From contig NC_035790.1 of NCBI RefSeq assembly GCF_001653235.2, positions 1-64,000 on the forward strand: a stretch of 64,000 nt of DNA. The letters are read 5' to 3'. Both the position numbers and the translations under genes were made by a program. This document shows, piece by piece, positions 1,267-60,713 of the stretch; the stretch's first letter is position 1; each line of letters opens with the position of its first letter. This stretch comes from Pochonia chlamydosporia 170 (taxonomy: Eukaryota > Ascomycota > Sordariomycetes > Hypocreales > Clavicipitaceae). The notes beneath the pieces were generated by a model. That model was not told the origin of the DNA. It searched no databases and saw only the letters and a program-made list of their open reading frames with translations.

Positions 1267-2101
1267 ATGAAGGTTGTATATATTGTTTCGACTGCCCTTA
1301 CCGGACTGGCGGCGGCGATTCCACTCGTAGACAGCACGCCAAGCAAAACCCTAGAAAAGCGAGTAAGTATTTACCTGTGGTTGACGACGAATCTGATTGC
1401 TGGCGGTATGCTGATATGACTGGCAAATTCTAGCAAGTAAGTATCTGCCCGTGGTTAACGAGCAATCTGATTGCTGGCGGAATGCTGATATGACTGGCAA
1501 ATTCTAGCAAGTAAGTATCTGCCCGTGGTTGACGAGGAATCTGATTGCTGGCGGTATGCTGATATGACTGGCAAATTCTAGTGTGTAAGTATCTGCCTGT
1601 GGTTGACGAGCAATCTGATTGCTGGCGGTATGCTGATATGACTGGCAAATTCTAGGATGTAAGTATCTGCCCGCGGTTGACGAGGAATCTGATTGCTGGC
1701 GGTATGCTGATATGACTGGCAAATTCTAGCAAGTAAGTATCTGCCCGTGGTTGACGAGGAATCTGATTGCTGGCGGTATGCTAATATGACTGGCAAATTC
1801 TAGTGTGTAAGTATCTGCCCGTGATTGACGAGGAATCCGAATGCTGGCGGTATGCTGATATGACTGGCAACTTCTAGCCTGTAAGTATCTGCCTGTGGTT
1901 GATGAGGAATCTAATTGCTGGCGGTATGCTGATATGGCTCGCAAATTCTAGCTTGTAAGTATCTGCCCGTGGTTGACGAGGAATCTAATTGCTGGCGGTA
2001 TGCTGATATGACTGGCAAATTCTAGTGTGTAAGTATCTGCCTGTGGTTGACGAGGAATCCGAATGCTGGCGGTATGCTGATATAAGTGATAATTGTAGTG
2101 A
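1267..2101 (+). CDS. Secreted peptide precursor built from nine single-codon exons
   Basis: Exon 1 (1267-1362) encodes 32 residues: a signal peptide (MKVVYIVSTALTGLAAA), a short propeptide (IPLVDSTPSKT) and LEKR, a Kex2-type site. GTAAGT follows directly. Ten introns follow (1363-1433, 1437-1507, 1511-1581, 1585-1655, 1659-1729, 1733-1803, 1807-1877, 1881-1951, 1955-2025, 2029-2098). Nine 3-nt exons separate them: CAA, CAA, TGT, GAT, CAA, TGT, CCT, CTT, TGT; the stop TGA is at 2099-2101. All introns are phase 0. The spliced product would be 41 residues ending QQCDQCPLC, released after KR. Each intron has a GTAAGT donor, a CTGAT or CTAAT branch site about 17 nt before the acceptor, and TAG. 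I recognise no homologue and assign no function. The alternative is a non-coding satellite, or one long intron skipping all units; transcript data would decide. Confidence 0.7.
1363..2098 (+). repeat. Ten tandem intron units, 74-bp period
   Basis: Ten copies of a 74-bp unit (71-bp intron plus a 3-nt slot; the last intron is 70 bp). Intron bodies are nearly identical, while the 3-nt slot between TAG and GTAAGT takes five different values. Units 7 and 10 share the derived variant AATCCGAATGC, and each follows a TGT slot. This suggests that a three-unit block (222 bp) was duplicated. The last unit has a divergent 3' end (AAGTGATAATTGTAG). Confidence 0.9.
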
Positions 2102-2540
2102 TGCGGCGCGCGCTACGATAGGCGTATAGTTAGGGTAGCTTTCGGTCGTTGTATGGAGTTCTCCGCTGGAGTTTAAGCTCGGCCGACCGTTAGCGGGTTC
2201 CTGTCTTTATCGAGCTTTTGCCTTTACGTTAATTCAGTTGATTGGATAATAATGCCTCTATCGTGCGTACGACCATGTGAAGAAATTTCCACTGTACGTC
2301 TGCACAACAGACTCAGTATATAACAGGCTGAATCTTTTGACAGCACGAGCCAAAGTATGTTGTCGCGTTTTCTTCCTTGCGCACTTGAGCCATCGAGTGG
2401 GTGCCTGGGATCCGCGGAACGCGCGATTAGGCACTCCAGAATGGTTGTATATTGGGGTGGATGCAGAGGTTCGAGCTAGCGTTAACGAAAAGCGGCTGGG
2501 GAGGCGAGCCGCTAGACTGCGGAATAGTGGTGGTTTCAAA
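2102..2540. other. 3' flank of the peptide gene, no gene recognised
   Basis: Presumably 3' UTR followed by intergenic sequence. Overlapping ORFs on both strands at 2258-2549 show no family features. Confidence 0.4.
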
Positions 2541-5889: not shown

Positions 5890-8800
5890 TCCAGGAACCC
5901 TGGCGCAATCCATTCAAAGCTACAAGCTACCATCCCCTCAAAACACACTTTCATCTAACCTACCTCGAAGATGCGGCTACGAGGGTATGCTTTTACATAA
6001 ACAAACGAATCGACCCTGGTACATGGAGCGTCTCGTGTATTCTCAAGGACATCATCTATCTGTCAATCTGCAATCCGCACTCTGGCAGGAACATCAATAT
6101 TTTCAACGTCTACAATGAAGTGACAGCCACTACGCTGACCACACTTGCGGAAGCCCTCGCCAAACTGGAGCCCTTGACAAATACCGTGGTACTTGGCGAC
6201 TTCAACCTACACCACCCTCTATGGTCAACGACACACCGACGTCCTGGTCACGGACCAAGTTCCCAGCAACTGATAACAATCATTGAGGATTTCCAGCTAG
6301 AACTACTCACTGAGCCTGGGACTCCCACCCATAGGTGGAAAGACGGAGAATCGACAATCGACCTCACGTTCGCCTCTGAGGACCTTACGTCCCACGTCAC
6401 TCACTGCAAGATCGACAGAAGCCTAGATTGTGACTCTGATCACCTCCCGATATCTGTGGCCATCGAGTGGGAATGGAAAGTGGCCACCCCGATAAGGAAG
6501 CGTTTGTGGTCGAAGACGAACATACCGATACTCCGACAAATAGTTAAGGACTCTCTACCTCAGGATTGCAACAATATCGCGCTTAGGAATGAGGACAACA
6601 TCGATACACTCGTATGCTCCATCGTCGGGGCTCTCAATGCGGGCATCGAGGCATCAACTCCGTTGTCTAACCCAAGTCCCCGCTCAATTCCAGGGTTTGA
6701 TCAAGAATGCAAAGATATCTGTACTGAAGTTCAGCGGTTACGCCGAAGGTGGCAACGAACAAGACAAGATGACGAATACGAAGCATACCGACAGGCACGC
6801 AATAGGAAGGGTCGACACATTCAGAAACTGCTTCGCAACACCCGCCGCCAGAGAGTAGAACAGGCATCTTCGTCGGAAAACGGACTATGGAAACTAGTCA
6901 AGTGGGCCAAGAACAGGCACGAGACTTCGGCCGCCTGTACACCAGCACTTGCTAAACCAGACGGAAAACTTGTTCACCGGCCCGAAGAGAAAGCTGAGTT
7001 GTTGCGCCAATCCTTCTTCCCACCTCCGTGTCAAGCTGATCTCTCAGACATCAATGGATACCAGTATCCTCCGCCAATTGAATGCCCAGATATCACACTG
7101 CCGGAGATTGAAAAGGCAGTGCGAAGGGCGGCACCGAACAAAGCCCCCGGCGCTGACGGCATCACCAATGGCATCCTGCACCAGACCCTTGATATCCTTC
7201 TCCCCAGCCTCCATAAGCTTTTCAACGCATGCCTTCAACTGGGGTATTGTCCTCAACACTTCAAGGAGGCAATCACTGTAGTCCTTCGCAAGCAAGGAAA
7301 AGACGACACACAACCCAAGTCGTACAGACCGATTGCTCTGCTCAATACACTGGGCAAAGTGATGGAAGCCATCATGGCCAACCGTCTTGCCTACCTTGCC
7401 GATGTCTACCAATTATTACCCAGCAGACATACTGGAGGCCGGAAACTCGCATCGACAGAGCACGCCATACACTTCCTCCTCCAACGGATATATCAGGCGT
7501 GGTCCGAGAACAAAGTGGCCTCCCTACTGCTACTTGACGTTTCGGCAGCATACGATAACGTGTCCCATGAACGACTAATACACAACCTCCGTAAGCGTCG
7601 GGTGAGCGAGAAGATTGTACGATGGACGGCATCTTTCCTTAGCGGCCGATCCACCACTCTAAAGCTGCAGGAATATACTGCACCATCGACGCCTATCGAA
7701 ACGGGAACCGCGCAAGGATCACCCTTCTCGCCGATCCTCTACCTGTTCTTTAACGCGGACCTTATCGAGGCTTGCATGACGCCTGAAACAGAAGCAGTGG
7801 GTTATATTGACGATGTGTCTATCCTAACCGTCAGCCCATCAGCACTGCATAACTGTAAAACCCTCAAGTCCATCCACCGTAAAGCCCAGGACTGGGCAAG
7901 GAAACACGGTTCCCAGTTCGCGCCGGCAAAGTATGAACTCGTACATTTCACCAGAGACCCCAAGGCGAACAACACACATGCTCTGCGCCTACCCCATGCC
8001 ACCATTAAGGCCTCGCCATCATGCAAATATTTAGGTATTCATATGGACACGAGACTCCGCTGGGATTACCACCGCGAGAAGATGGAAGCCAAAGCCACGA
8101 AGCGACTCTCGGCTTTGTCAGCCCTGGCATCGTCAACATGGGGCGCGGGCCTGGTCAATCTCCAACAAGTGTACAGGGCGATGATCATACCTCAGATGTT
8201 ATATGGGTGCTCAGCATGGCACGTTCCCGGAAGAGGCCGCATAAACAGGGGAGCCAATATGATAGCTGCCATTAGAAAAATACAACGACGAGCAGCTCAA
8301 GTGATCACTGGAGCTTTCCGCACTACCGCTGGCGCGGCGGTTGACGTCGAAGCCCACCTACTCCCAGTGGAACAGCAACTCGAACAAACAGTTCTGGAGA
8401 CAACCATGCGTATCTGGACCAGTCCGCTATACGACGACATGGCCAAGTGCCCGGGAAATATTAACTCGGCACGATGGACACGTCAAGAACGCGATGAGCA
8501 GAGCCCTCTAGATCAACTCTCGAGTATCCTGGAGCACAAGTACGACGTGCAACTGGACAAATTCGGGAAACACCAGCCACATATCGCCCCTCCTTGGTGG
8601 ATCCCTCCATTAACGTGTATAAATGAATCCGCCGAAGAGGCAATCAAGGAACACGACGCCATGGAAACAGGGACAATATGTGTATATACCGACGGAAGCG
8701 GCATCAACGGTCATGTTGGCGCTGCGGCGATAGCACTAGAATCTCAAAACCATGGCGTTCCAACCAAGCGAACAGAATACATGGGACTATCTACCACGTC

Positions 8801-9059
8801 CACAGTATACGCGGCAGAACTCAGAGGGTTGGTACTCGCACTACAGATGGTACTCGACATCAATACAGCGACAAATATACCCGGAAAATGCGTCGTATTC
8901 ACCGACAACCAGGCCGCCATCCAGGCAATGCGGAACCCAAAGAACCCTTCCGGGCAATACATCCTCGTTGAAGCCGTACTGGCGCTTGACGAACTCAGAA
9001 GCCGGGGCTGGGAAGTGAAATTCCGCTGGATTCCAGCACATGTCGGAGAGCCTGGCAAT

Positions 9060-9408
9060 AGTTGTTTCTGAACGGCAGGTGACGAGATGGCGCATATGCC
9101 TATTAGGCATATGCGCCATGATAGACTATGTGACATGGCTGCCTACGCAGGCAGGGACAATCTACATGTATGTAAGTATCAACGGGGATAACGTCAGCAG
9201 CTCTGATACAGCACTTGCAGCTACCAGACAGAGGCTGAAGCTACCAAAAGCAATTATCAAGGGATCAAACATCACAATGTATCAGTAGTGTTATAACGCA
9301 ACAAAAGCAAGCTGCAGGCAGCTTGCTTTTGCCTATAAAGAGGTCTACCTGATCTCTCTAGATATCTTAATCAAGACTAAGTACACTTGAAGAATCACAT
9401 TTTCAACT
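9060..9408. mobile_element. Second AGTTG-terminated insertion inside LINE ORF2
   Basis: A 349-bp insertion begins AGTTGTTTCTGAAC and ends TTTTCAACT, flanked by the 5-bp direct repeat GCAAT (9055-9059 and 9409-9413). It interrupts RNase H between PGN and EAAD. It has strong hairpins: ATGGCGCATATGCCTA pairs with its inverse around one T, and AAAAGCAAGCTGC pairs with GCAGCTTGCTTTT. Termini and duplication length match the insertion at 5717, so the two are related non-autonomous elements. Confidence 0.7.
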
Positions 9409-16108: not shown

Positions 16109-18642
16109 TCAATGGCCAGCTGTTTTCGCCGCGGCAGCGAGCCACGATAGCTCCCGTCTTCTGAACTCATCATCATTAAGATGGATGCCCTCGAGCTCTT
16201 TCTTCTCCTCTATGATCGAGAGAAATAACGGATCTAGGTCGTTGATAATGCCTGCCCGAAACCACGACCTCAATACCTGACACATCCCAACTGTTTGCGC
16301 CTGAAGATTGCACCGTTGGGGAACAACCATCTGCCCTGCTGCCGAGAACATCCTCTCACATTCTGCAGACATTGATTGTATTGTGACAAAGTCGAGGGCC
16401 ATTCGGGAGAGACGAGGGTATTGCAGGCGCTTCTCATGCCAATACGCTATCGGATCTCGCACAGTCTTGTCAGTGCTCTCATGGCTCGATTGCCATCGTT
16501 CGTATTCGTCGCCAACCGTGTCGTCGTCCAGTAGAGGCTCTGTCTGTATGGAGTCGATACGGGACTGTTCGCAATGCTCTTCGAAGGCATTGTAGTATTG
16601 CTTCTGTCGTTTTGCAACAGGCTCGTCATTTGAGGCCACCACAATATGGAAATCTCGATAGGACTCGTCCCACACTTCTTGAACTATCCTTTTTGCAGAT
16701 CTGATCCAGTCGGGCTTATGTACCCAGGCCTGCTCGAACCATCCCCATCTGTATGCCGGGTGGAGTGCGAGGGCGGTATAATATATCGGTGTTGTGTCGA
16801 GAATAGTGTAATACTTGTCTAATTTCTCCCAGGCCATATTTATGCCGATCCTGAACTGTTCGGGGTCAGGAAAATCTTTTGCCATCGCCTTATATTTTTC
16901 GAGCTTGCCAAGCAGGAATTCAAACCCATTGATCACATCCCAAACGTTCCCATATGAACCAGTATAACCCCTCTTGCGTTTCCTGATTAAACCGTCGCCT
17001 TCTAGAGTCTTGACTGCATCTTCATAGTATCCAAGGATCGTCGCGAAGTGTTGAAGTACAGACCAATCGTTGGCCGTAAGTTGGTTCTCGTCTCTAAGGA
17101 TTCGAGGCCGGACAGCCGACTTTTTCAACTGGCCAGTTCTTTTTGATGTATTCTCCTCCTCCCATTGGATTCGGAACTTCGCGACTAGCAGTTCGAAGTA
17201 CCTTCGAAGTCTCAAGGCGCGGCGGATCATATAGAGCTGGGAAAGCCAGCGCGTATCGTTATCTAGCACTACCGAGACGGGGCTTTTTGACCGTATTTTC
17301 GGATCGTCCGACATGGATATGTCGTACTCTTGAAGTTCTTTCAACAGGTATGTCAGTCTGTCCGATCGATCAACATCCACGACGAAATTATGGAGCTTCC
17401 CAACCGGCCCTTTCTGTCGCCAAAGTTCGTATTCGGCTTCAGACAGCGCTTCTGCACCAGAAAGTTGTTCTTCGAACGCGTCTGTATCCTTCCCGAACAG
17501 TAGTGCCTTCGCAGACAGATTGACTATATGGCCGAAGCAGCGGCCTCGCCTTCGAGCGCCATTGAAGCCGAGCTTTTTGCCAATAGCCTCAAGTGCTGTG
17601 TCGTTGTTCTCGGCATTGTCAAGGGTAAAATACCCAATATTCTCCTCGATGCCAAAAGCCTCGATGGTATAAAGGACTTCTGTTGCAATGTTGTTCCCCG
17701 AATGTCTGCGGACTTCGGGGACCCCCAGAGCGACCTTGTGGGGCTTGCTATTCTCGTCCCTGAAGAAGCACACGATACCGTATAACGAGTGTCGATTCCG
17801 CGCCCTCCATCCGTCAAAGCTGACGTGTATTAAGCCGGGGCTCTTTCGCAGGGCTTCAATGACGCGCGCCTTGTGCTTTTTAAATTCGGAGTTGATGAGC
17901 GCGCGAACTGTGGTATCAGAGATGTTGGCGTTCGTGATCTTGACTGCAGGGTTAAGGTATTCGAAGATATCCCGGAGTCTCTCATGTTCAACAACACTAA
18001 AGGGCTGATTCGTGTCGACTGATTCGTGTCGACTATCCACTCGATCAGGAGACGTTGAAAGTGATTTCGATTAAATCCGCGTATCATAGAGTTGGCAATC
18101 GCCTGTTCTCGAGGTCTTAAAGGGTCGAGCTTCCATATATCCACAATCGATCTTGGCCTCTTGCTCCCTGGCTTCTCCTCGGCTTTCTTTTGCAAGCCGG
18201 ACTTTGTCTTGTTATCTGGTGCAGATATTCCGTGATCCTTGTATAAGTGATTCAGCGCATTCTGAAGGCCAATAGCAACGAAATTCTTAGGTCTGGGGTC
18301 GTTCTTCTGAATACACGGCTTGCAGACCCATCTGCGCTCGTCGTCATGTTGTATGTCGTATCCATATTCCCAAGCCCATGAGTAGTTGTCTTTGCTTCTT
18401 TCTGACCATACCCAACCCGGAAAATGTCCCCAAAGACGCGTATCGTACTTATCAGGAGTGGGCAATGTCGTCGGCGGCGGGGAGAACGGCGTCAATGAGC
18501 TCTCGGCAGAAGAAGCAGGCGTGGAAGGCACTGGGAGTTCGAAGTCAATTGGGACATCATCGATAGAAATTGGGGACGATTCTAGGAATTCCGAAGCGCT
18601 CATGGTCATAGTAAACATAAAGACATAATGTGAAAGTGTCAC
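16109..18642 (-). pseudogene. hAT transposase with a 14-bp duplication frameshift
   Basis: The start is at or slightly inside 18642 (MSASEFLESS is a good candidate). Domains in order: Ser/Pro-rich N-terminus; BED-like zinc finger (WVCKPC, then HLYKDHG); the RRNHFQRLLIEWIV-type segment; catalytic core with FDGWRARNRHSLYGI, YFTLDNAENNDTAL and CFGHIVNLSAKALLF; hATC dimerisation region (LSRMALDFVTIQSMSAECER, MFSAAGQ). The first ORF (to 17830) and second ORF (18040-16109) are in different frames. The shift is explained by a perfect 14-bp tandem duplication at 18005-18032; counting one copy joins WIVDTNQ to PFSVVEHERL in frame. The rest of the protein is open to the stop at 16109. Confidence 0.85.
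18005..18032. repeat. 14-bp perfect tandem duplication inside the transposase
   Basis: CTGATTCGTGTCGA occurs twice in direct succession (18005-18018 and 18019-18032). Fourteen is not a multiple of three, and the frame arithmetic shows that this one duplication fully accounts for the frameshift. Confidence 0.95.
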
Positions 18643-25364: not shown

Positions 25365-27063
25365 TCATGTTTCCAGCTCATCATCTTCTTTATACCGCCA
25401 CTGCTTGGACTCTCGGTTCTGGATATACACTGGCCATGAATGCGGCATGATCGTGACTCGCGCCTTCCATTTCCACTGCTGGCTCGGGTCCACCTGACGA
25501 ATATCGTAGTCACGAAAAAGTGTCGCGCATAGTTTGGTCAACTCGATCCTAGCCAAGTTCTGACCCGGGCATGCCGCGTAGCCGGCGCCAAACTGCAGGA
25601 TGAGTACGCCTGTTAAGTGATTGCACCGGAATTAATATGCCGGGAGGGAGCTACTCACTGCTACCAAATACTGTTCTCTTGTCGCAGCACTTTCTGCTAA
25701 CCACCTCTCAGGACGGAACTCGTGTGCATCATGGCCCCAGATTTCCTTTGAAAAGTGTATGGCCCATGGGTTCACTGAGAGGATTGTACCTTCCGGGAAT
25801 GTGCGCCCACTAATAGTGACGGCGTCCTTTCCGACAACTCGAGGAAAATTGAAGCCAGATGGCCCAAATATGCGAAGAGACTCGTTGATGCACGCCCGCA
25901 AATATGGCAACCTCCTCGCATCATCAAATAAAATTATCGCTGTCTGGCATAGGCCTTTCGAAGAAGCAGCATCTATCTCCTCGCGCAAACGTTGGCAAGC
26001 AGCTGGATTTCGAATCAGATGGTAAATGAAGGATTGAATTGCTATTGATACAGTGTCGGAGGCTGCCCCAACGTTGACTGCTGTATTGGCGCGGATATCA
26101 TGCACAGTCAACTTTTCTGGCTGATCTTGGTGTGTTTTGAACCAGTGCGCTAAAATGTCAAACCGCGCATCTAAGTTATGTTGTCTTTGATCCAGTGCGT
26201 TCATTGCCGTGTTATAGAGGTGGCCCATTGGCAAAACTCTTGCTGTTGTTATAATGGGGTTTCCAACCAGTATGATGTGAAGCCAATTAACGAAGCCAGC
26301 AATTACGACGTACAGATTCAAGTTAGCGGTGTTGGCTATTGTGTTGTTGATATCGTAGCCAGCCTTTAAGAAGCCAAATGGTTTAGAAAATAACATCTCG
26401 CCAGCAACATCATAAGTCGTGTAGGTGATAAACTTGTCCAAATGCACTGGCCGTTGCTCCTTTGCAAACTTGTTCATCCATCGCTTTAAACTTTGAAAGT
26501 GAGCATCAATATCTTTTTCAGCTTGAAGTAAATTGGTCATGGTATAACCAGATGCGAAAAGTTTGGACCTTTCTTTCTTATGGCCAGAAACCAAAGTTGA
26601 GAAAGGATTCTGGAATCGATAGTCCGGCACAGCCGCTATGTTATACCATGGGCCCTACATAGTTCAGTTAACGAAGAGTTTGGTGAATGTGCATCTGGCT
26701 ATTTTGAATACCTTATTCAAGGAACTATGGAGGATCTTGCGAATGCCTTCAGGGTGGCTGATGCTAACCTCGTTGTGAGATATACGGACAAAGTGACCTA
26801 TGACTACTGTTAATATATAGGAGTTCGGGTTTCAGCTACCCCGTACCATGATTCTCATGCAACCTGACAACTTGAAGGTGGTGGTCACCACTTATCAAGT
26901 GTTTAATATGCCACAGACGTGTAAAGGATGCTAAGAATGGTCCGGGGATGTCACTGATTGCCGTACTATAGCGACGATGGGTGAGAATGAGGAGGATAAT
27001 TGCGCCGATCAGGATAGAAACCGCAGGCCAAGCCGAGAACGAAACAAAGAATTGTAATGCCAT
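25365..27063 (-). CDS. Cytochrome P450 monooxygenase, four exons
   Basis: Exons on the minus strand: 27063-26847, 26797-26712, 26654-25659 and 25592-25365, giving 508 residues. Introns are 49, 57 and 66 bp with GT-AG ends, and the reading phase fits at each junction. The N-terminus has a membrane anchor (VSILIGAIILLILTH) and a proline hinge (DIPGPFLASFTRLW). Internal landmarks: HGHFVRISHNEVSI, YRFQNPFST, I-helix AASDTVS, K-helix ESLR, FRPERW and heme loop FGAGYAACPGQNLA with the Cys ligand. These are the features of an ER-bound fungal class II P450; PGPFLASFTRLW and YRFQNPFS suggest the pisatin-demethylase-like group. No biosynthetic genes lie next to it, so the substrate is unknown. Confidence 0.93.
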
Positions 27064-31570: not shown

Positions 31571-31604
31571 TGCGACAATGCTGCTGCTGCGACAATGCTG
31601 CTGC
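31571..31604. repeat. 17-bp perfect tandem duplication in the HET domain
   Basis: TGCGACAATGCTGCTGC at 31571-31587 is repeated exactly at 31588-31604. It shifts the frame by two and alone explains the split of the HET domain. Confidence 0.95.
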
Positions 31605-32679
31605 AAAGCCAAAGCTGACGGGTTCGAGTACGTTTGGATTGACACCTGCTGCATTGACAAGACAAGCAGCGCGGAGCTTTCGGAGGCAATCAACTCAATG
31701 TACCTATGGTACTTCAAAGCTGAGAGATGCTACGCCTATCTTGCAGACGTGATGTCGAAAGACGCCATCGGGAAAAGCGAGTGGTTCACAAGAGGGTGGA
31801 CCCTTCAAGAGCTGCTGGCGCCATCAGAGGTTTACTTCGTTGATAAGCATTGGAACTACCTAGGGACCAAGAAAAGTCTGCAACAAGTCATATCCGACTG
31901 CACTGGTATCCCCCTCGCTATTCTCTCTGGCGATGAGGACCTCGAAGCGGCTAGCGTCGCACAAAGAATGTCATGGGCTGCGAAGAGAAAGACAACGAGA
32001 CCAGAAGATATGGCCTATTGCTTAATGGGCATATTTGGCATCAACATGCCAATGCTTTATGGAGAAGGTGAACGAGCCTTCATCAGACTTCAGGAGGAAA
32101 TCATGAGGATCTCGGATGACCACAGCCTCTTCGCATGGAAGTCACCAGGTATACGTGGGCTTCTGGCCACCTCTCCAGTTGCGTTCGAGGCCTCCAGGAA
32201 CATCATCCAATTCAATCCGCTCGATACACCCAACGGTCCCTTAACGGTCAGCAGTAGGGGGGTCCATTTAGACCTTCGTTTTGTCGGTAAAGGGCCTCAA
32301 GGACTTGGCCTCGCGGTCCTTCATTGCAAAGAAGGACAGGGCGATAGCCCGATAGCCATCTATTTGAGAGACTTGTCTTGGACAATGGAAAGATTTGAAA
32401 GAGTTCGAAGCGAAAAATTCGAACGGCTTGATCTAAAACAATTCAGACCATCGCAATATCCAATGAGACGGGTGTGCATCCAAACTGAGCGGACGACACC
32501 TAGGCGGAGATCTGAAGATCCTGGGAAATATGATAGCATTGCGCAATACAAGGTCTATAATGACAGCACTCTAGCGAAATTCACGAAATTCACGAATCTG
32601 ACAGAACTAATGAGCGAAGCAGCAACAGCACTTCAGGATAAGATATGGCTGCTACTAACACGGAGCGATGTCGAAGTTG

Positions 32680-33700
32680 ATTCGAAGGACGAGAACGACC
32701 GGACGCTGTTGTCGTGGCTTGCCGGGAATGGGCACAAGGCCATCGTCCTGCAATTGCTCGGGAGAGGCGCCGCAATTGAGGCGAAGGACAAGGATGGCGG
32801 GACGGCGCTCTGGTGGGCCGCCAGGAACGGGCACGAGGCCATCGTCAAGCTGCTGCTCGAGAAGGGTGCCGACGTCGAGGCGAAGGATAAGTACGGTCGG
32901 ACGGCGCTCGTGGTGGCCGCCGGGAACGGGCATGAGACCATCGTCAAGCTGCTGCTCGAAAAGGGGGCCGAGGCGAAGGACAAGTACGGTCGGACGGCGC
33001 TCGTGCGGGCCGCCGGGAACGGGCATGAGACCATAGTCAAGCTGCTGCTCGAAGAGGGCGCTGACGTGGAGGCGAAGGACCAGTACGGTTGGACGCTGGA
33101 CGTCGAGAGTGGGACGGCGCTCGTGCGGGCCGCCGGGAACGGGCACGAGGTCATCGTCAAGCTGCTGCTAGAGAAGGGTGCCGATGTGGAGGCGAAGGAC
33201 GATGGCGGTAGGACGGCACTCGTGCACGCCGCCGGAAACGGGCATGAGACCATCGTCAAGCTGCTGCTCGAGGAGGGCGCTGACGTGGAGGCGAAGGACC
33301 AGTACGGTTGGACGCTGGACGCCGGGAGTGGGACGGCGCTCGTGCGGGCCGCCAGGAACGGACACGAGGCCAGCGTCAAGCTGCTGCTCGAAAAGGGCGC
33401 CTACGTCGAGGCGAAGGACCAGTACGGTCGGACGGCGCTCGTGCTGGCTGCCAGGAACGGGCACGAGGCCATCGTCAAGCTGCTGCTCGAGAAGGGCGCC
33501 GATGCAGAGGCGATGGATGACGGCGGTGGGACGGCGCTCGTGCGGGCCGCCAGGAACGGGCACGAGGCCGTCGTCAAGCTGCTGCTCGAGAAGGGTGCCG
33601 ACGTCGAGGCGAAGGATGACGGCGGTAGGACGGCGCTCGTGCAGGCCGGCAGGAACGGGCACAAGGCCATCGTCAAATTGCTCCAAGGGAAACGTCCATG
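32680..33700 (+). repeat. Near-identical ankyrin repeat array
   Basis: Ten units of about 99 bp with high nucleotide identity. Units 4 and 6 both carry the same extension (DQYGWTLD followed by VES or AGS), which indicates block duplication. Homogenised repeats like these are typical of fungal recognition domains. Confidence 0.85.
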
Positions 33701-33989
33701 ATCCCTTGCGAGACGCACTTGCTCCCCGTAGTTTGGCCATGCCGTTGACCACATGGAATGCAACGGGGCGAGACTCTGGTCCTTGGATACAGAAGCATGC
33801 AGGGCGATGATTGGGCTGTCAGGCAGTCAGTTAAGTCAGAAATCCAGCAAGTGGCGATATCGCCAACGTGTCATTTCACCAGCACGACTCACCATCTATG
33901 GAGCATTCCAACATAGTTCAACAAAGCGGAATACATGGGTTCGGGACAAGGGGGACTCCCGGTCGCACATGATGACATGAACAGCCCGT

Positions 33990-35535: not shown

Positions 35536-37397
35536 ACGTATGTGCATAGCGGGTCGCTCAACATAGCGAACCGCTCACCCAACACTACCTTTTCGTAAAG
35601 ATTCCACCAAAAAACAACCACAACATAGGAAATCAACTAATCTTCGCTGGTATCCTCTTCATTAGATGTTTCCACATCAATCCGACATGTTCGTGCATTA
35701 TGGCCGGGCTTGCCGCACACACCACATCGCCGACCCTTCCTCTCATCCCTCGGTTTGCGACCTCTCGTCCAGCGATCTTCTTGCTTTATCTGCTCATCCA
35801 CGTCATTCTGGTCCTGAAGAGCTTGTCCCTCGGCAATAGTCATGCTACCACCTTGACGTAAACGCGTTTTTCGAGCTCTACGCCGCTTGCTTAGTATTGC
35901 ATTTGCCTCTCGAAGTAGCTGGTTCTCCGCTTTCAAGAGGGCCATCTTATGCATAGTTCCGCATGTACCCTTCGAAAATTGATCCATAGCAGCCAAAATT
36001 GACGTTGGAGAGCTTCCTTGGTGGCGGCTTATTCGCCTTTTGATATAATCAGTCTGCGAAGTAGCCTCAGTTGGGTTATTTGGGGTCTTTGGAACCCACA
36101 GTTGCGGTAGCTCAGTAGCTTCTTCAACAGGAGGTGGCGTCCGTGGCCTTATATCTAGCCGTGACAAGACACTTTTTGGGTCAAATGGGATAAGGCCTGC
36201 ACCCCTAAAAGCCCCCTGGATATTTTTTTCCGTCATTGCAGCTTTAAATGCGGTGAAAAATGCGGGTAGGAAGTCCGCCTTTGTAATGTGTGTAATCCCC
36301 GCTCTCATTAGCCCTTCAATTTCTTTACCATAAGCCTTCTTCAGTGGCCCAAAACAGCCAACATCTAGTGGCTGAAGAATATGGGATGAATGAGAAGGCA
36401 TGCAAAGCGTGATTATCTGATGGTCCTTGCAAAACAGCTCAAATTCCGTGGAGTGGTGGCTTTCATGCCCATCCATGATCAGAAGACGATATGCGCCTTG
36501 AGTTCGCGGCTTAGTATGCTTTTCGAAGTGCTGAATCCATTCAACACCTTTCTCATTTGTAGTCCAGCCGTTGTGAGTTGTAGAAATAACCCAATCCTTC
36601 GGCAGCACGCTGTCTTCATACCAGTTCGCGAGGTGATATTGCCCCGCAACGATGATAAATGGCGGGATAGCCTCACCTCGAGAATTAATAGATTGGATCA
36701 CCGAAACCCATTCTCTATCACCTGGCTGAGCCAATGTTGGTTTGGCATGTCTATCTGAGCTTGTAACAACCATGGTGGTTGAGATTATGCCCATCATAAA
36801 GCCAGTCTCGTCAAAGTTGTGGAAATCCTCCTCTAGGATGCCGTATTTCGCGACTATGTCGCGCACAAGCTCAAACCAGGGCCGAATTATCTTTGGATCT
36901 TCGCACAAGGCTCTCTTATAGTCATATCTACGCGTAAAACGCGTGGTTAGCTCTTTTTGGCGTTTGACAAAGTTTGAAGCCCATCGTGGTCCCACGGGAA
37001 GCGCGTCGCGATCGGCGAGCAGTCGATTCGCCATATCTTCCACACCACTAAGCCGGGGAGGAAATGATCGCGAATCTAGGTCAAGAATATATTCAACAAT
37101 TGTTGATTCCTCTAGATTTGTAAGCTTTCGACAATTGGGCATAGTATCGCGTCTCGCAGTAACACCGTTGATCCGATCCTTGAGCGTGCTAAATGGAACT
37201 TTGTAGATCGCTGCGGCTGCTCGAATGCTTAGCTTAGAGTTATGTTGTATAGCTTGGTAGGCTAAGATTAAGTTTTTCTCTTTTTTTACAGAGTCCATGA
37301 TTTTTCGTTGAGAAGTAAGTAAATAAAGAATGATGGTTCCATTTGCCCTGTGGAGTGAGCGGTTCGCTATGTTGAGCGACCCGCTATGCACATACGT
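35536..37397 (-). mobile_element. Intact pogo-family transposon
   Basis: A 1,862-bp element with perfect 42-bp inverted repeats (35536-35577 and 37356-37397; each begins ACGTATGTGCATAGCGGGTC read inward). TA flanks both sides (35534-35535 and 37398-37399). It carries one uninterrupted transposase gene on the minus strand. Its left flank is Copia but its right flank is an OrsD/recombinase gene rather than the Copia continuation. Confidence 0.95.
35637..37298 (-). CDS. pogo-family transposase
   Basis: 553 residues from ATG at 37298 (MDSVKKEKNLILAYQAIQHN); the frame is also open further upstream. N-terminal Psq/CENP-B-like helix-turn-helix (LSIRAAAAIYKVPFSTLKDR and the FPPRLSGVEDMANRLL region). 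DDE core: NFDETGFMMG, LLIMDGHESHHS, and HILQPLDVGCFGPLKKAY. A coiled-coil-like segment (MALLKAENQLLREANAI) follows, then a C-terminal CCHC knuckle, CGVCGKPGHNARTC. All three acidic residues are present with no stops, so it could be active. It is the unmutated counterpart of the RIP-degraded copy at 21138-22765, although the two have different terminal repeats. Confidence 0.92.
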   Translation of the reverse strand: MDSVKKEKNLILAYQAIQHNSKLSIRAAAAIYKVPFSTLKDRINGVTARRDTMPNCRKLTNLEESTIVEYILDLDSRSFPPRLSGVEDMANRLLADRDALPVGPRWASNFVKRQKELTTRFTRRYDYKRALCEDPKIIRPWFELVRDIVAKYGILEEDFHNFDETGFMMGIISTTMVVTSSDRHAKPTLAQPGDREWVSVIQSINSRGEAIPPFIIVAGQYHLANWYEDSVLPKDWVISTTHNGWTTNEKGVEWIQHFEKHTKPRTQGAYRLLIMDGHESHHSTEFELFCKDHQIITLCMPSHSSHILQPLDVGCFGPLKKAYGKEIEGLMRAGITHITKADFLPAFFTAFKAAMTEKNIQGAFRGAGLIPFDPKSVLSRLDIRPRTPPPVEEATELPQLWVPKTPNNPTEATSQTDYIKRRISRHQGSSPTSILAAMDQFSKGTCGTMHKMALLKAENQLLREANAILSKRRRARKTRLRQGGSMTIAEGQALQDQNDVDEQIKQEDRWTRGRKPRDERKGRRCGVCGKPGHNARTCRIDVETSNEEDTSED

Positions 37398-37399
37398 TA

Positions 37400-39745
37400 T
37401 TGGATCTTGCATCAACAATTTTGGAAAGTGAAGGCGCCGATGATGATGACGACGACGACAATGACGACGACGATAATAAAGACGATAATAAAGACGATGA
37501 TCACGACGATGATCACGACCGTGAGAACAATAGCGATAATGGCAGCGACACTAACAATTATAAAGGTTACTGCGAGAACGGCAGCGACACTGAGGACGGC
37601 AAGGAAGATGGCTATACGCTAGATTCTAGTATAGAGCATCTCAAATTCTGTCTCCCTCAGGGTGTCCGCCTCGAACTATCAGAGGCACTCTTCCAGCTCT
37701 CGATGATGTTTTGGACATACCAAAACCGCGATGGAGTAATGGATTCTTCGACAATAGTACATTTCACAGCGGTGCTGGGAATTCACCGTTCCTCATTGGC
37801 GTACCGCGATGCATACAACTTCACCCCAGACCTAGCAGCCCTTATATGGATAGGACGGTTGTTGTTTCTCGAGTACAGTTTACCTCAATACAGTTATGAC
37901 ACGCTAGTATATCCCTGGCCAGAGCGTCACACATACCCGTCTCAACCGGAGCGTCTGGAAGCAATCCGAAAGAAGTATATGCTTAGGGGCTGCTATTCAC
38001 CGCTTAGCGAGCTTATTGAGCTAAAGGCCTTTGGAAAGAGTATTGTGAGACGGGAAGGACCTCGTGGGATGTTGACCTGGGCCCCAGATGGCCACTCTTT
38101 CACCTTTCATAACGACAAGGTAGTACGTCTCTCGGAGTTCTGTACAACCTATCAGGCTTCGATTAAAAGCGTACAAAAGCTCGTTACTGAGATGATGCTT
38201 GGTTGGGAACCTACAGTCAATCTCTCCGTAATACAAGATGACCTAACCTGTCAGTTACCAGGCTGGTGTTTCCTCGACAAACCGGAGAACCAGCTATTGG
38301 GCACATATAAAGCGATGTCACGCCGTGCGTGGTCGTCCTCGTTCCGCGGCAAAGCACTTGCCAAGGCAGGACATTGGCTACCTGGTTCATGCCTGGCGTA
38401 TCTACAGGCTGGTGCTGAACTGTCAATAAAGGGCTTTGCTGCAGCTCATATCACCGCCGGTTTACCGGGTCGAGGCACGGAGATAACAACCGTTCGCTTT
38501 CGAAACACAAAACTTGGCATTAGGAATCTGTTTGTTCGCGGGGGAAAGGTTGTTATTGTCATTGGCTATACCAAAGCTCGTGCCTCAAACAACCACTCTT
38601 TCTACGTTGTTCGCTATCTTCCAGATAGTTTGGGCCAGTCTATTATACTCTATCTTGCGTATATCCGACCGTTTCTCGATTTCTTGGCGAACCAGCTTAA
38701 ATTATCGCATCATCACGGCAATGAGTTTCTCTTTTTAGACCCAAAGCGCAAGAATAGGCACATGTCCTCGACGCAGGCAACACAAGCTCTTCGGGATTTA
38801 ACGCGGAATCTTCAGACGCCGTGGTCAATATCTCTATATCGTCAGGCATCGATTGCCATTGCTAAGCGTCACATAAGCGAGTTAATAAAACGGAGGAACT
38901 TCTATTACCCAAATGATGCCAGCGACCCGATTCGAATGATCGCCGCCGGAGTGGGACATCGCCCGAGGATGCTTCTTACTGCCTACGCAATCGACGCGGC
39001 CCTACCGACCCGACTCCAGCCCGAACTTCTTGAAATGTATCGCCAACTATCAACACTATGGCAAAACTGGAATGTGGAGTACTACAACCAGCATTGTGTC
39101 GCGGACTGTAGCATATCAAAGGAAAACGCAGCACAGAAGCTGGCTGGCGAAATACAATATTCGGTAACTCCTCTCGCGTCTAATGCTACGGGCACCCAAA
39201 AACGGAGACAGTCCAGGAACTTAAGTAGCACGGGGCGTTGCAAAAGAAAAAAAGGGGTTGGCACGACGGACACCAGCGATGATAATGATGTAGCCCTAGA
39301 AGCCAGCATGGAAGGGTTTCCAGAAGGGTTTATTCATAATGCGGAATACCAGATCCTCATATGTGTGGCGTGCGAGTCTATTATTAGTCCAGGAAGACGG
39401 TCGTTCTACGATCATTTAAACCGCCACCGTATCTTGGGTCCTGTTTGTAAAGCTTATATTGAGCGATTCAGCACCCTTCAGCTCACGCCAATAAAGGAGC
39501 TTTTAAGGCCGCACCAAATAATCCCGGCTATCCCTTACCTTCGAGTCTACAGAGCATTTCGATGTAATATTTGCCAGTACCGTACAACTCGATGGGACAC
39601 AATCCTTGACCACATGGTAGTACACAAGCTTGGTGTGTCTCCAGTGCGAGCCTGGGAGACGGGAAAGATAGCCAAATGCTACGTACAAACATTCTCGTCA
39701 GCAAAAGGTCGAATAGCATACTTCGAGATAACGCCGCCGAATTAG
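37400..39745 (+). pseudogene. OrsD/tyrosine-recombinase-like protein, copy A, 5'-truncated
   Basis: The open frame enters directly from the pogo end with no native start. It begins with an acidic Asp/Asn-rich tract, followed by the conserved block shared with copy B (FQLSMMFWTYQ, MLRGCYSPLSELIELKAFGK, LPGWCFLDKPENQ). A tyrosine-recombinase-like region follows: R-x-x-E in GRGTEITTVRFRN, Lys in GYTKARASNN, Arg in LYRQASIAIAKRH, and GHRPRMLLTAY, with the His-Tyr spacing of the family. The C-terminus is an OrsD/DUF3505-like zinc-finger pair (ILICVACES to HLNRH, then FRCNICQY to HMVVHK, ending CYVQTFSSAKGRIAYFEI). The recombinase reading is my inference. Confidence 0.65.
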
Positions 39746-48980: not shown

Positions 48981-51141
48981 CTATATTATGGTGCTTGGAA
49001 TATCTGGTATCCCAAACCATGACTTCAAACACTCTAACGCTTCAATTACATCACTCCCCATCCGATTTCGCCGATCCGTGATGGTTATCTTTGCCCCAGA
49101 GAAGAGCCTTTCAGGTTCCGCAGACATTGCGGGAATTGACAGTATATCCACGGCCATTTTGCTTAAGTTAGGATAGGTCTTTTGCTGGGTCTCCTCTAGC
49201 CACCATGTAAGGGCGCTTGTAAACCCATACACCCGTTCGGTCCTACAATAATGCTCATACTCGTCTGTGATAGGTGCCGGTTGTAGATGCTTATTCCTCC
49301 ATTTTAAGAACTCGTTCGTAGTTGTCGATGGTGCCTTAGAGAGGGGAAGTGATTCCACGGGTTTATATTCACCCCACAGAGTCTTAATCAACTTCTTTGA
49401 CGACTCAACCCACTCTTTCTTCCAGTTCTCATGTATGTAGTGCCATTTATGCGAGGGGTGGAGCACGATAGCTGCAACGTAGGCTGGCGATTCGTCAGTG
49501 AGGCGATAATACTTATCCAATTTCGCCCAGCCCGAATTATACATTGGTGCCATAATCGGATCATCAGTATATGCCTCTTTTCCTGCTTCGAACTGTGCCA
49601 ACACGAAGTCCATAGCCAAGAGGACATTATCGAGAGTTGCAAATGATGATTCCAGAGCCTTAGTTGTCATTTTGAGCTTCTCTAAAAATGATTTGATCTT
49701 CTCGAGGATGGCCCAGTCCTCTGCAGAGAGCTCGTCTCCAGCACACTCTGCTTCTACCCATTTGTTGAAATAGCCATTAATTGCGTCTCTAAGATTCAAG
49801 GCCGCTTGCAGCATGGTATACCACGAATTCCACCTTGTGTCGTTGTCTCGCGCAAGCTTGCGGTTATGGCTAATAGCCATAAACTTTTGGCTGCGTTGAA
49901 CACTTCTTTGAATATAAACGACAAAATTATGAAGCTTGCCAAGAGGACCTTTTTGCCGCCACGCTTCAATCTGCTTTAGTGTCACATTATGCAGACCCAA
50001 ATCTTCCTGTTCGAGCTTCTCGTTATCGGTAACGAAGAGGAAGGCTTTTGCGGCTAGGTTGATAATATGACCTTGGCAGCGGAGTCGGTGAGATTTGGGA
50101 TCATATTGAATGTCAAATTGGCGTAGAAGGGCTATAAATGTTAGCAGCGCTCTAAAGAAATAGTGAGTTATACCGACCAAGAGAAAGGGACTTCATCATT
50201 GTGTCGTTGTTGCTTGCATTGTCCATCACGAAATATCCAAGTTTGGAAGCAAAACCCCAGTCTTCAACCACTTCCATGATTGCCGCAGCAAGGTGAGAAC
50301 CATCATGCTCACTGTCGATGTCTTTTAAGGCCAAAGTGTGGTGTTCTAGCTTGCAGTCTTCCGTGACATAGTGAGCAACTATACCTAAGATTGCTAAAGA
50401 GTTGGGAGAAGTCCAAAGGTCGCAGCTGATGTGAATCCTTGACTTTGCGGACTGTATGCGCTGCTTGACCTTCTCCTTCTGATCTTCATACTGCCGCATA
50501 ATCCATTTCTTGACAGTTTGGTGCGTGTCTGGAAGCCAAGTATCGACGTCGGCATTAATGTAGGCCAATAGGGCTCGGAATTCTGGGCATTCCACCAGCC
50601 GAAATGGAAGAGAACAGGCGGTAATAAACCTTACGTACAACACTTCGAGCTGGTCCGGGTCGATCGAGTCTCCGTATTGATCGTTAAACCGGCGGCGTTT
50701 TCGGACATTTTCTTCAGCCGTAAGACGAGCTTGTTCAAGAATAGTTCTTATAGTTCTTACTTTAGCGGATCGTGGAGCGCCTTTTGGGAGACCATGACCG
50801 TCAGGGGGAGGGTCCGTGAGGTGCTTGGCTGGAGCCGCAGTTCCACCAGAACAAGAATATGTTTTCTCGCAGTGTTTGCAGCGCCATTCCTCTTTTCCAG
50901 TTCGTTGATTGTAATATCTGGTTTCAATCTCCTCGTCTGGCATATGACAGAAGACCCATGACGTTCTTGGCTTCGCGCAAGAGGCTATAGAGGCTGTGTG
51001 AGGTCGCGACGATTGGTATTGAGAGGTTCGGCTCTCGTCTGTGTCATGTAGCTGCTGACCGGAACTCTCCGAAAGGTTGTCGGATGTTATTGAACCTTTT
51101 CGTTGCGACGGTTGAACAAACTGCAAGCGTTGTTGAGGCAT
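48981..51141 (-). CDS. hAT transposase, two exons
   Basis: Exons 51141-50178 and 50131-48981 (minus), separated by a 46-bp intron (GTCGGT to TATAG, branch CTAAC), give 704 residues. The frame is also open upstream of the chosen start (MPQQRLQFVQPSQRK). N-terminal BED-like finger: WRCKHCEKTYSCSGGTAAPA then KHL. Core: HISCDLWTSPNSLAILGIVA, FVMDNASNNDTMM, then GHIINLAAKAFLF after the intron and GPLGKLHNFVVY. C-terminal hATC: LSKMAVDILSIPAMSAEPER, LFSGAKITITDRRN. No stops, so the protein could be functional. Confidence 0.9.
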
Positions 51142-57832: not shown

Positions 57833-60704
57833 GGCGGCCCCTACAGAGGCGCCCGGGCGCGCATTTAGAATTGCGCGCCCTGCTGACTAACTATTTGCGC
57901 GCCCCCCCTTCCATACGCGCAACAAGGCATGTAGCTGCTGCCTGCACAGTTCCGTCATGGCCCAAGCAGTATTCCCTGATGACGTGCTCCCATCGGAGGG
58001 TGTATACGATTCACGCGCATCACTCCTTGCCGCTATAAATTCCTGGGCAAAGCCCAGAGGCTACGCCTTTACCACCGGAAAATCTTCCAAGACTCCAAAT
58101 GGCCGTGTTAAAGTTGTTTTTGCTTGTGATCGGAATAAGCCTCCACCAAGCACATTAATCGAACGAAAACGCCGGACATGTAGCCGCGGAACAGGGTGCG
58201 AGTTCTCAGTGCTCGCGAAAGAATCCCTAGACGGGGCCTCTTGGGTCCTGAGCCATCGACAAGGCCAACAATACGTGCTACACAACCACCCGCCAAGCGA
58301 AGACCCATCTGCACACCCATCACATCGCCAGCTTAGCGAGAAAGATATTCAAGATATCTCAAATCTTACTGCCTCTGGAGCTGCGCCTCGCGAAATCAGG
58401 ACCTATCTCCACAACAATTCCAATACTCTTGCAACTCAGAAAGATGTATACAATCAGATTGGAGCTGCAAGGAGGGATCTACGCGAGGGCCAGAGCAGCA
58501 TACAGGCACTAGTCAACCGATTGCATGAGGAGGGGTTCTGGTGCCAGATCCGGTTGGATTCAGATAATCGGGTTACGGCAATCTTTTTTGCCCATCCGGA
58601 CTCTATTGCATACCTCCAATGTAATCCCGATGTCCTGCTACTAGACTGTACCTACAAGACAAATAAGCACAGTATGCCACTTCTTGACATGGTTGGCGTT
58701 GATGCTTGCGAGCGATCTTTCTGTGTTGCTTTTGCCTTTCTCTCCGGAGAGACAGAAGACGACTACTTATGGGCATTGCAACATCTCAGATCGCTCTATC
58801 AGCGTGACCTTCCTTCCGTTGTTTTGACAGATCGATGCCAAGCCGCGATCAATGCTGCAGCAACCTCGTTCCCTTTGTCCAAGGGTCTGCTTTGCACTTG
58901 GCACGTCAATAAGGCGGTGTTACAGCATTGCCGGCCGGCTTTTCTGACTGACAAGAACCAGGGAGAGAAGAGGTGGGATGAGTTCTACGCATTCTGGCAT
59001 TCAATTGTAGCCTCACCGAATGAAACGATATTTCAAGAGCGTCTGACTTCATTTGAGCGTAAATATGCTAAGAATTATACAGAAGCAGTGGGATATATCA
59101 GGACAACCTGGCTTGACCCGTTTAAAGAGAGGATCGTCAGAGCATGGGTCGACAAACACTTACACTTTGGCAATGTGGCTACCTCAAGGCAGGTGGCTTA
59201 TGGAATGATAGAAGATGGAGTGACTAATTCATCTCCCAGGGCCGAAGGAATCCATTCATTGATCAAAGCACATATTAAGATATCCACCTTGGATCTCTTT
59301 GATGTTTGGCAAGCCATGAGACCTGCTGTAACAAATCAGCTGAAGGAGCTGAAGTATATGCGGGCTTCTCAGCAAGTATCAATGCCACTAGACGTCTCTG
59401 GAGTGTTGTTCGAGGCAGTAAGGGGCTGGGTGTCCCATAAGGCATTGCGTAAAGTACTAGAACAACGGCAATTGCTTTCAAAGCCACTCAAAGCTGCCTG
59501 TACTAAGACCTTCACATCTTCATTTGGACTGCCGTGTGTTCATACTCTGAAGAGGCTTGAGGAAGAAGGCCGAACCCTCTCGCTACAGCACTTTCATCCC
59601 CACTGGCACTTAAAGCGAGATGTATCTCAGCCACAGCCAATGCTAGAGCCTAGAGCAGTGTCAAGTCAGTTTAACCGGAGGCGCAATCGGTCAGTGACAA
59701 GTACAAGGCGAGAGCCTAGCGCATTCGAAGCGATTCAAGAAACAATGCGGCCAAAGGCGCAACCTACATGCAGCAGATGCCACGCATTGGGTCACATCAT
59801 GACTTCGAAGGCATGCCCTCTGCGATATGAAGAGCTCTTCCAGGTATCAGAACAAGCTACAGAAGTGGCGGCACAGATAACGCAGACGATATCAGCTGCA
59901 ACAGTGGCACCAGCAGCCACAGAGACAACTTCAGTTCAGGCCGCTGTAGGTCAGGTAGAGGCAGATCTGACGACAGCAGTTCAAGTACTGGCGGGCCACA
60001 CAGGAGAGGGCCAGATAGAGACAGTCCAGGAGTTGGACGGATTGGTAGATCATGCGGCGGCAAGCCAGACATCTACAATTGAGGAAGTTGCAGACTGCAT
60101 CGTGGTCGTCCAGACAGTGGCAGACCAGGTTGCAGCGGCAGAGACGATGGCAGCGCCAGAGCTGAGATACGACGACCCGCGAGCCATTCACCACAGATAT
60201 GTTGAAGCTAGACAAGCTTGGTACAATGCGCAGCCTCGGGGCAGTATTAAAACTAACCAGCAGTATCGGAAGGCAATGGGTCTGCCTCAACGGTACGATA
60301 AAGTAAGCTACAAGTGGTGTCTTGATTGGAAACAGATGGGCAAGCAACGTATGATGCAGAGAGGCCCCAGAGAGTGGACTAAGGAGGAGATGATGGCGTA
60401 TCTTGATTGGAGCAGGGCAGAGGAGGTTCGTGTTGAGGCACTGGTAGCGGCTGAGATGGAAGGCGAACCCTTCTCTAACAGAAGAGGTATGCGTGAGATC
60501 TGGGAGGCAGCGGCAGCGGATTGTGATGCACAACAGGCATTGTACTTAGGTCAGTAGGTAGGGTAACACGAAACCGATCACTAAAAAATCACTGGGCCGC
60601 AGCCTTACTTTGCTGCAGCTGTGCGTGAGGAGGGGCGCGCAAATAGTTAGTCAGCAGGGCGCGCAATTCTAAATGCGCGCCCGGGCGCCTCTGTAGGGGC
60701 CGCC
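57833..60704 (+). mobile_element. Hop-like MULE transposon, MULE-1
   Basis: A 2,872-bp element with 73-bp inverted repeats (57833-57905 and 60632-60704, begin GGCGGCCCCTACAGAGGCGC read inward) that match throughout by eye. It is flanked by TCCTTACCT at 57824-57832 and 60705-60713, a 9-bp target duplication as in Mutator-like elements. It carries one transposase and is immediately followed by a different MULE that uses the same 9-mer. Confidence 0.95.
57957..60557 (+). CDS. MULE transposase, MULE-1
   Basis: An 866-codon open frame. The N-terminal FAR1/WRKY-like zinc-binding region includes YDSRASLLAAINSWAKPRGY, FACDRN and a CxHNHPPS-type end (VLHNHPP). The MULE core has LLLDCTYKTNKHSMPLLDMV (first Asp), VVLTDRC (second Asp) and LCTWHVNKAVL. 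A CCHC-like knuckle, CSRCHALGHIMTSKACPLR, follows; the C-terminal block has TNQQYRKAMGLPQRYDKVSY and EWTKEEMMAYLDWS. A 51-bp stretch (59189-59239) with GC...AG ends matches the position of an obligatory intron in MULE-2. Splicing it gives TSR-AEG, the conserved third acidic motif, and an 849-residue protein; retention keeps the frame too. Confidence 0.92.
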   Translation: MAQAVFPDDVLPSEGVYDSRASLLAAINSWAKPRGYAFTTGKSSKTPNGRVKVVFACDRNKPPPSTLIERKRRTCSRGTGCEFSVLAKESLDGASWVLSHRQGQQYVLHNHPPSEDPSAHPSHRQLSEKDIQDISNLTASGAAPREIRTYLHNNSNTLATQKDVYNQIGAARRDLREGQSSIQALVNRLHEEGFWCQIRLDSDNRVTAIFFAHPDSIAYLQCNPDVLLLDCTYKTNKHSMPLLDMVGVDACERSFCVAFAFLSGETEDDYLWALQHLRSLYQRDLPSVVLTDRCQAAINAAATSFPLSKGLLCTWHVNKAVLQHCRPAFLTDKNQGEKRWDEFYAFWHSIVASPNETIFQERLTSFERKYAKNYTEAVGYIRTTWLDPFKERIVRAWVDKHLHFGNVATSRQVAYGMIEDGVTNSSPRAEGIHSLIKAHIKISTLDLFDVWQAMRPAVTNQLKELKYMRASQQVSMPLDVSGVLFEAVRGWVSHKALRKVLEQRQLLSKPLKAACTKTFTSSFGLPCVHTLKRLEEEGRTLSLQHFHPHWHLKRDVSQPQPMLEPRAVSSQFNRRRNRSVTSTRREPSAFEAIQETMRPKAQPTCSRCHALGHIMTSKACPLRYEELFQVSEQATEVAAQITQTISAATVAPAATETTSVQAAVGQVEADLTTAVQVLAGHTGEGQIETVQELDGLVDHAAASQTSTIEEVADCIVVVQTVADQVAAAETMAAPELRYDDPRAIHHRYVEARQAWYNAQPRGSIKTNQQYRKAMGLPQRYDKVSYKWCLDWKQMGKQRMMQRGPREWTKEEMMAYLDWSRAEEVRVEALVAAEMEGEPFSNRRGMREIWEAAAADCDAQQALYLGQ

Positions 60705-60713
60705 TCCTTACCT

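Follow-up and report, generated by a model that had tools for sequence, protein, structure and literature searches.

In the micro-exon genes of schistosomes and the bicycle genes of aphids, secreted proteins are put together from many short exons that preserve the frame. The exons in those genes are longer, whereas the genes described here would have up to 32 consecutive exons of one codon each. Most of their mature product would lie in short frame-preserving exons, which by definition marks a micro-exon gene of the schistosome type, and this likeness does not imply common descent. Ratchet points of recursive splicing leave no exon, whereas here one codon would remain after each step. Juxtaposed acceptor and donor sites and stepwise removal are otherwise features of recursive splicing as of the present model (PMC8605326). 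Ultra-short exons are likewise on record in ascomycete fungi, with two 3-nt exons in lipS of Dactylellina (PMC5639578) and a spliced 1-nt exon with read support in CYP621A of Fusarium (PMC12940212). In both cases one or two tiny exons stand in an otherwise normal gene, whereas here they would make up the whole mature product. Xlr2 of Trichoderma also has a functional microexon in a filamentous fungus, a single and regulated one in a transcription factor gene, unlike the arrays described here (PMC11121469). No gene with runs of single-codon exons was found among titles and the starts of abstracts in the literature searched, which lay mostly outside subscription journals and bioRxiv.

Here we describe positions 1267-2101 (forward strand) of the window, as we call the whole 64-kb stretch of Pochonia chlamydosporia 170 DNA that was analysed. 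This region very probably is a functional gene whose secreted peptide is freed by Kex2, belonging to a group of four in which single-codon exons encode nearly all of the mature product. The initial annotation had seen ten introns split by 3-nt exons here, and this layout was confirmed base for base, with all junctions in phase 0. Exon 1 (1267-1362; 96 nt, 32 codons, phase 0) encodes a signal peptide, as recognised by eye, a propeptide and LEKR. Intron 1 (1363-1433, GTAAGT...TAG with CTRAY) leads to micro-exon 1 (CAA for Q, 1434-1436). There follow intron 2 (1437-1507) with micro-exon 2 (CAA, Q, 1508-1510), intron 3 (1511-1581) with micro-exon 3 (TGT, C, 1582-1584), intron 4 (1585-1655) with micro-exon 4 (GAT, D, 1656-1658), intron 5 (1659-1729) with micro-exon 5 (CAA, Q, 1730-1732) and intron 6 (1733-1803) with micro-exon 6 (TGT, C, 1804-1806). 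The chain goes on with intron 7 (1807-1877) and micro-exon 7 (CCT, P, 1878-1880), intron 8 (1881-1951) and micro-exon 8 (CTT, L, 1952-1954), and intron 9 (1955-2025) and micro-exon 9 (TGT, C, 2026-2028). The nine slots, read in order, spell QQCDQCPLC. Introns 1-9 are 71 nt each and begin at intervals of 74 bp, the first at 1363; intron 10 (2029-2098) has 70 nt and a 3' end unlike that of the other units, and directly 3' of it the stop codon TGA (2099-2101) opens the last exon. GT, TAG and a CTRAY motif within the last 50 nt are present in all ten introns. Tandem Repeats Finder described the array as 9.7 copies of period 74 with 91% matches, and a DNA search, blind to relatives at about 70% identity, placed it only once in the 44.2-Mb genome.

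Since a repeated array of DNA comes after a signal peptide and a KR site, the gene might also be read as coding for a Kex2-processed repeat precursor (KEP or RiPP), the introns then merely interrupting the repeats. It has only one Kex2-type site, however, no core peptide is repeated, and the repeat is intronic; we consider such a precursor scarcely credible. No UstYa domain was detected in the 20 that were scanned of the 29 window ORFs of at least 180 aa, the gene lying at a contig end.

Single-codon exons for a secreted peptide, the reading preferred here, appear to recur elsewhere in the genome. A search with the pattern of two successive 3-nt exons between introns returned 27 matches, 24 of which fell in the window gene (contig C1) and in three further loci, named here C2 (about 6.078 Mb), C5 (about 3.555 Mb) and C7 (about 2.613 Mb) after their contigs; the other three belonged to a GTAGGTT microsatellite on C8, and a control with the reversed pattern gave one match. 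In each of the four loci, exon 1 looks secretory and comprises 81-96 nt in whole codons, and an intron chain with 3-nt exons comes after it. The fitted product of C2 is MKFSVALPIIAAALAVANPVMDHSIEAR, then QRQPSCHFYCSHEGTFGNEPGFYDFCMAHICR-stop, with 33 introns and the stop codon directly after the last of them, as in the window gene. The product of C7 is MKVISIVLVALAGVAFANPINADEPQLEKRAK, then WCTGANGGGWCPDNYSCCQCAGNWGCRPKGGICACA-stop, with 32 introns, and that of C5 is MNTKITLLAMVTGVTAATQAVLAGTVD, then CIPEYQRCETLGQPCCHDHHCRIFQGYMNHGY, with 33 introns and a last exon that opens with Cys. C5 is uncertain in two places: a further exon, with a GC donor, may be concealed in a 131-nt intron (L012 4358-4488), and the final acceptor can be placed in more than one way.

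The four fitted genes have 108 introns in total, all in phase 0, their GT-AG ends being imposed by the chain parser. All but two of these introns are 48-75 nt long (median 62 nt), the two of double length being the 131-nt intron of C5 and a 116-nt intron of C2 (L039 3756-3871). Both resemble two units fused round a disused slot, which suggests that one residue was lost in each by splice-site decay. Internal exons are exactly 3 nt long in 102 of 104 cases (window 9/9, C5 32/32, C2 32/32, C7 29/31), the remaining two, of 6 and 12 nt, both being in C7. Consecutive internal 3-nt exons in phase 0 are the defining character of the gene class described here, and all four genes, as fitted, show it. 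The initial annotation had also made near-identical neighbouring introns a requirement of the design. This part of it has to be given up, as the introns of C2 and C7 are barely or not alike outside the branch and 3' region (z 0.8 and 3.0). Its central proposal, single-codon exons for a secreted peptide, remains the best reading of the sequence, and is strengthened by three genes that keep 3-nt slots despite strongly diverged introns.

The 3-nt spacing was examined by fixing the exon length k at values of 0-15 and scoring the chains at the four loci. With k=3 the scores were 59 for the window, 161 for C5, 144 for C2 and 146 for C7 (10, 34, 33 and 30 introns), against 29 (k=7), 13, 16 and 19, respectively, for the best other k. 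The window also gives ten introns at k=7 because its near-identical units permit an offset. No other chain of at least four introns with 3-nt exons was found by the chain parser on either strand of the 64-kb window and three 9.9-kb loci. Ten mononucleotide-shuffled windows reached a best score of 11.7, as compared to 64.2 for the real window, a value that includes one spurious upstream intron. Among 340 mononucleotide shuffles of the 17 loci that share the 3' element described below, a chain of at least four occurred in 11, with a top score of 13.1. A frame-aware model in which any exon length was allowed kept the 3-nt exons in 9/9 cases in the window, 30/32 in C5, 26/30 in C2 and 25/30 in C7. 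The remaining internal exons of C5, C2 and C7 became longer and partly intron-retaining in this model, which counts against the single-codon reading.

Confidence in the single-codon reading comes mainly from this spacing and from the Cys content of the slots. Cys takes up 20 of the 108 fitted codons, as compared to 3.9% Cys trinucleotides within introns (P=7e-9; P=2e-8 with a null without stops), the P values per gene being 0.004 for the window, 0.008 for C5, 0.035 for C2 and 5e-5 for C7. That no fitted slot is a stop is partly by construction, since the chain parser disallowed stop slots. A stop-blind refit gave 103 slots with 19 Cys (P=2e-8) and one stop (P=0.013), which lies in C5 and adjoins the 131-nt intron, a length that exceeded the intron limit of the refit. 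Slots of the window gene are off consensus in 12 of 27 letters and its introns in 21 of 558 (P=8e-11); in pairwise comparison the slots differ at 63% of sites and the introns at 6.2%. The slots of the four genes thus look coding.

These figures bear on a second account of the array, in which it is a non-coding minisatellite, 1363-2098 being removed as one long intron or the exons skipped, and the slots never read. The units are indeed near-identical and every skip would keep the frame. Block splicing would, on the other side, leave a precursor that ends at LEKR and lacks a mature part, three diverged arrays retain 3-nt slots between splice sites, and the slots are rich in Cys, the stop-blind refit having one stop among 103. 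Introns of 48-75 nt should moreover suit intron definition better than a block of more than 700 nt. We judge the minisatellite account very unlikely, and the peptide spelt by the C5 slots, described next, is a further point against it.

The C5 product has the Cys spacing C-x6-C-x6-CC-x4-C-x11-C, counting the slots and the Cys that opens the last exon. The consensus of the inhibitor cystine knot is C-x3-7-C-x4-6-CC-x1-4-C-x4-13-C. The C5 product falls within this spacing without reaching the Pfam cut-off: taken as the mature peptide (CIPEYQRCETLGQPCCHDHHCRIFQGYMNHGY plus C, the second of two C5 versions tried), it scored E=0.00097 and 19.8 bits with PF02819, whose curated cut-off is 21.3. The first version, which included the signal exon and one more, optional proline, gave E=0.04 with PF02819 and E=0.083 with UPF0506. 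We take PF02819 to be a toxin family of the cystine-knot kind. PF10530, also a toxin family of that kind, was matched by the C5 chain at E=0.0075 and 16.7 bits, below its cut-off of 26.8. Among 18 full permutations of C5, two matched any Pfam family at E<=5 (best 0.016) and none a knot family, while two of 10 permutations with Cys fixed matched a family (DUF5637, E=0.071; UPF0524, E=1.2). Comparison of C5 with PDB gave weak matches to agatoxin (0.18), hybrid atracotoxin (0.1) and the alpha-amylase inhibitor AAI (0.41), and the C7 product matched granulin A at E=0.034. No Pfam match was obtained for the C7, C2 and window products. A protein search, which was word-based and hence weak for short peptides, found no homologue of the spliced C7 and C2 products, leaving these chains without an intronless orthologue as a length standard. 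The scores are individually marginal; taken together, a residue order dispersed across more than 30 introns appears to make sense as a disulfide-rich peptide. Names such as toxin, granulin or knot would denote fold resemblances only and carry no claim of activity. C5 thus fits the Cys spacing of inhibitor cystine knot peptides and of the fungal PF11410 antifungal peptides, and differs from them in gene architecture.

Downstream of the window gene lies a structured 3' element (2143-2189, forward strand) that is common to 16 further loci of the genome. The 3' flank of the window gene gave 17 genome matches including itself, and two further queries (13 and 15 places) added no locus. All four single-codon loci carry the element, though they were first found by intron pattern alone. 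The element, of about 47 nt, forms a stem of 17 pairs in which 96.9% of cells pair and 11 cells are changed on both sides. The paired-cell share, the number of both-side-changed cells and the covariation score were each reached by 0 of 500 shuffles; the four pairs with changes on both sides were equalled in 79 of 500 shuffles, and hence are not exceptional. Rfam gave no match at E<=1 in the seven of 17 loci that were searched. The other 13 loci adjoin secretory-looking exons, as judged by eye, and nine of them parse as small secreted peptides under the frame-aware model, seven without introns (L043, L046, L047, L048, L052, L054 and L057) and two (L050 and L056) with one or two introns. The models of L044, L049, L051 and L055 were poor parses and were set aside. 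In L049 and L055, tandem peptide repeats were noticed by eye in open frames upstream of the element. Weak similarity (52%, E=0.04) was seen between the first exons of C2 and L052. L056 (1062-1414) is an ordinary three-exon gene with both introns in phase 0 and encodes a PF11410 antifungal peptide (E=1.9e-9), so that a PF11410 member with the same 3' element has ordinary exons, in contrast to the single-codon loci. The 17 loci (the window gene and L043-L058) may possibly form a post-transcriptional regulon.

The state of this element also enters into the question whether the family is real and the window copy itself young or dying, perhaps without a functional peptide. The window product has nine residues and an odd number of Cys (three), and the gene sits at a transposon-rich contig end, position 1 of the window being the first base of contig C1. 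Against such decay, GT, the CTRAY branch motif and TAG are kept in 10/10 introns, the slots are diversified rather than uniform, and the 3' element of the window copy is intact. A copy of this sort is improbable in our estimate, though less so than the minisatellite. In the neighbourhood, ORFs for a LINE-type reverse transcriptase and for hAT, DDE and MULE transposases were noted at window positions 6120-9071, 16109-18040, 35637-37418, 48981-50180 and 57957-62136.

If the window gene works as proposed, each intron, of a size usual for fungi, would be recognised by intron definition and then removed. Where fungal introns are short, pairing of splice sites across the intron is to be expected. 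With a median intron of 62 nt, pairing across a single unit should therefore win over a skip that spans about two. Two spliceosomes should find no room on a 3-nt exon, and the introns should hence be removed one after another; one codon would be added to the growing exon per step, with phase 0 kept, in whatever order the introns are taken. Any exon could be skipped in frame, and one pre-mRNA could thus give a combinatorial set of peptides. We tentatively propose, at somewhat less than even confidence, that the arrays serve as a peptide-writing mechanism. Each tandem copy of intron plus codon would add one freely evolvable residue without risk to the frame, and the family would be assembled and revised in steps of a single amino acid, residues being lost by fusion of neighbouring introns, ordinary genes arising through later intron loss and combinatorial peptides through in-frame skipping.

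As for origin, the most likely source of the arrays is tandem duplication of a unit of intron plus codon, which would keep frame and 3-nt spacing automatically; the codons would later have been diversified by selection, while the introns drifted or were homogenised. The spacing in whole codons and the conserved phase favour this origin. In the known case of intron gain by tandem duplication a single new intron was formed, whereas here units of intron and codon would have been repeated up to 30-odd times. Kinship between the window unit and the C5 introns is detectable, also when the 35 nt at the 3' end are left out (z=36.5), whereas kinship to the introns of C2 (z 2.9) and C7 (z -0.1) is not convincing. 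From the sequences we read the four arrays as a series that runs from a young or homogenised state (window) through an intermediate one (C5, with introns still akin to the window unit) to an old one (C2 and C7).

Introner-like elements offer another origin, in which an intronless gene already existed and copies entered it between codons, codon diversity then predating the introns. They resemble the window array in consisting of near-identical introns and differ in being dispersed among genes, whereas the units here stand head to tail in one gene, spaced by codons (PMC4457414). In Zymoseptoria tritici, introner-like elements dominate recent single intron gains, accounting for up to 90% of them, and other intron duplication, including within-gene tandem duplication, for <1% (PMC4457414). 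In the window, the roughly tenfold higher diversity of slots over introns given above is as insertion would predict and is unexplained by tandem duplication alone, which would need strong selection on the slots, or intron homogenisation with the slots protected. The C5 introns, furthermore, are star-like round the window unit, with mean scores of 6.97 against it and -0.40 against one another (identities of 0.65 and 0.61, respectively; shuffled 0.60), and 7 of the 13 relatives sharing the 3' element have intronless parses. All this has to be set against the phase 0 of every fitted intron and the distance of 3 nt between nearly all of them in four genes; we know of no insertion mechanism that is codon-aware. 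The near-identical unit was moreover seen only in its own array, with diverged kin only in C5, in a genome search that is insensitive at about 70% identity, as a query with the C5 array matched only itself and missed the window. Across the 16 other loci with the 3' element, only C5 rose above control (29.5 as compared to 17.5 for the best of 38 control pieces). We regard insertion as unlikely, though a more serious contender than the other alternatives, and retain tandem duplication. Periodicity of three units among the window introns was weak (permutation P=0.07).

If true, the single-codon reading would take genes in pieces to an extreme, entire mature peptides having about as many introns as amino acids, and a single gene of about 2 kb having more than 30 introns. 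It would challenge current ideas of minimal exon size and of splice-site pairing and let intron definition and the order of splicing be tested in a natural setting, and it suggests how new peptides could be lengthened or shortened by one residue with the frame intact. Genes of this kind should escape standard annotation and read aligners, and peptide families may therefore hide in fungal genomes already sequenced. P. chlamydosporia, a hypocrealean fungus, infects eggs and females of plant-parasitic nematodes, and a public RNA-seq set for strain 170 is GEO GSE97767 (PMC5773674). Elsewhere in the window, a cytochrome P450 was noted at 25632-26630, and an ORF with a HET domain and ankyrin repeats, the repeats being highly similar, at 31578-33701.
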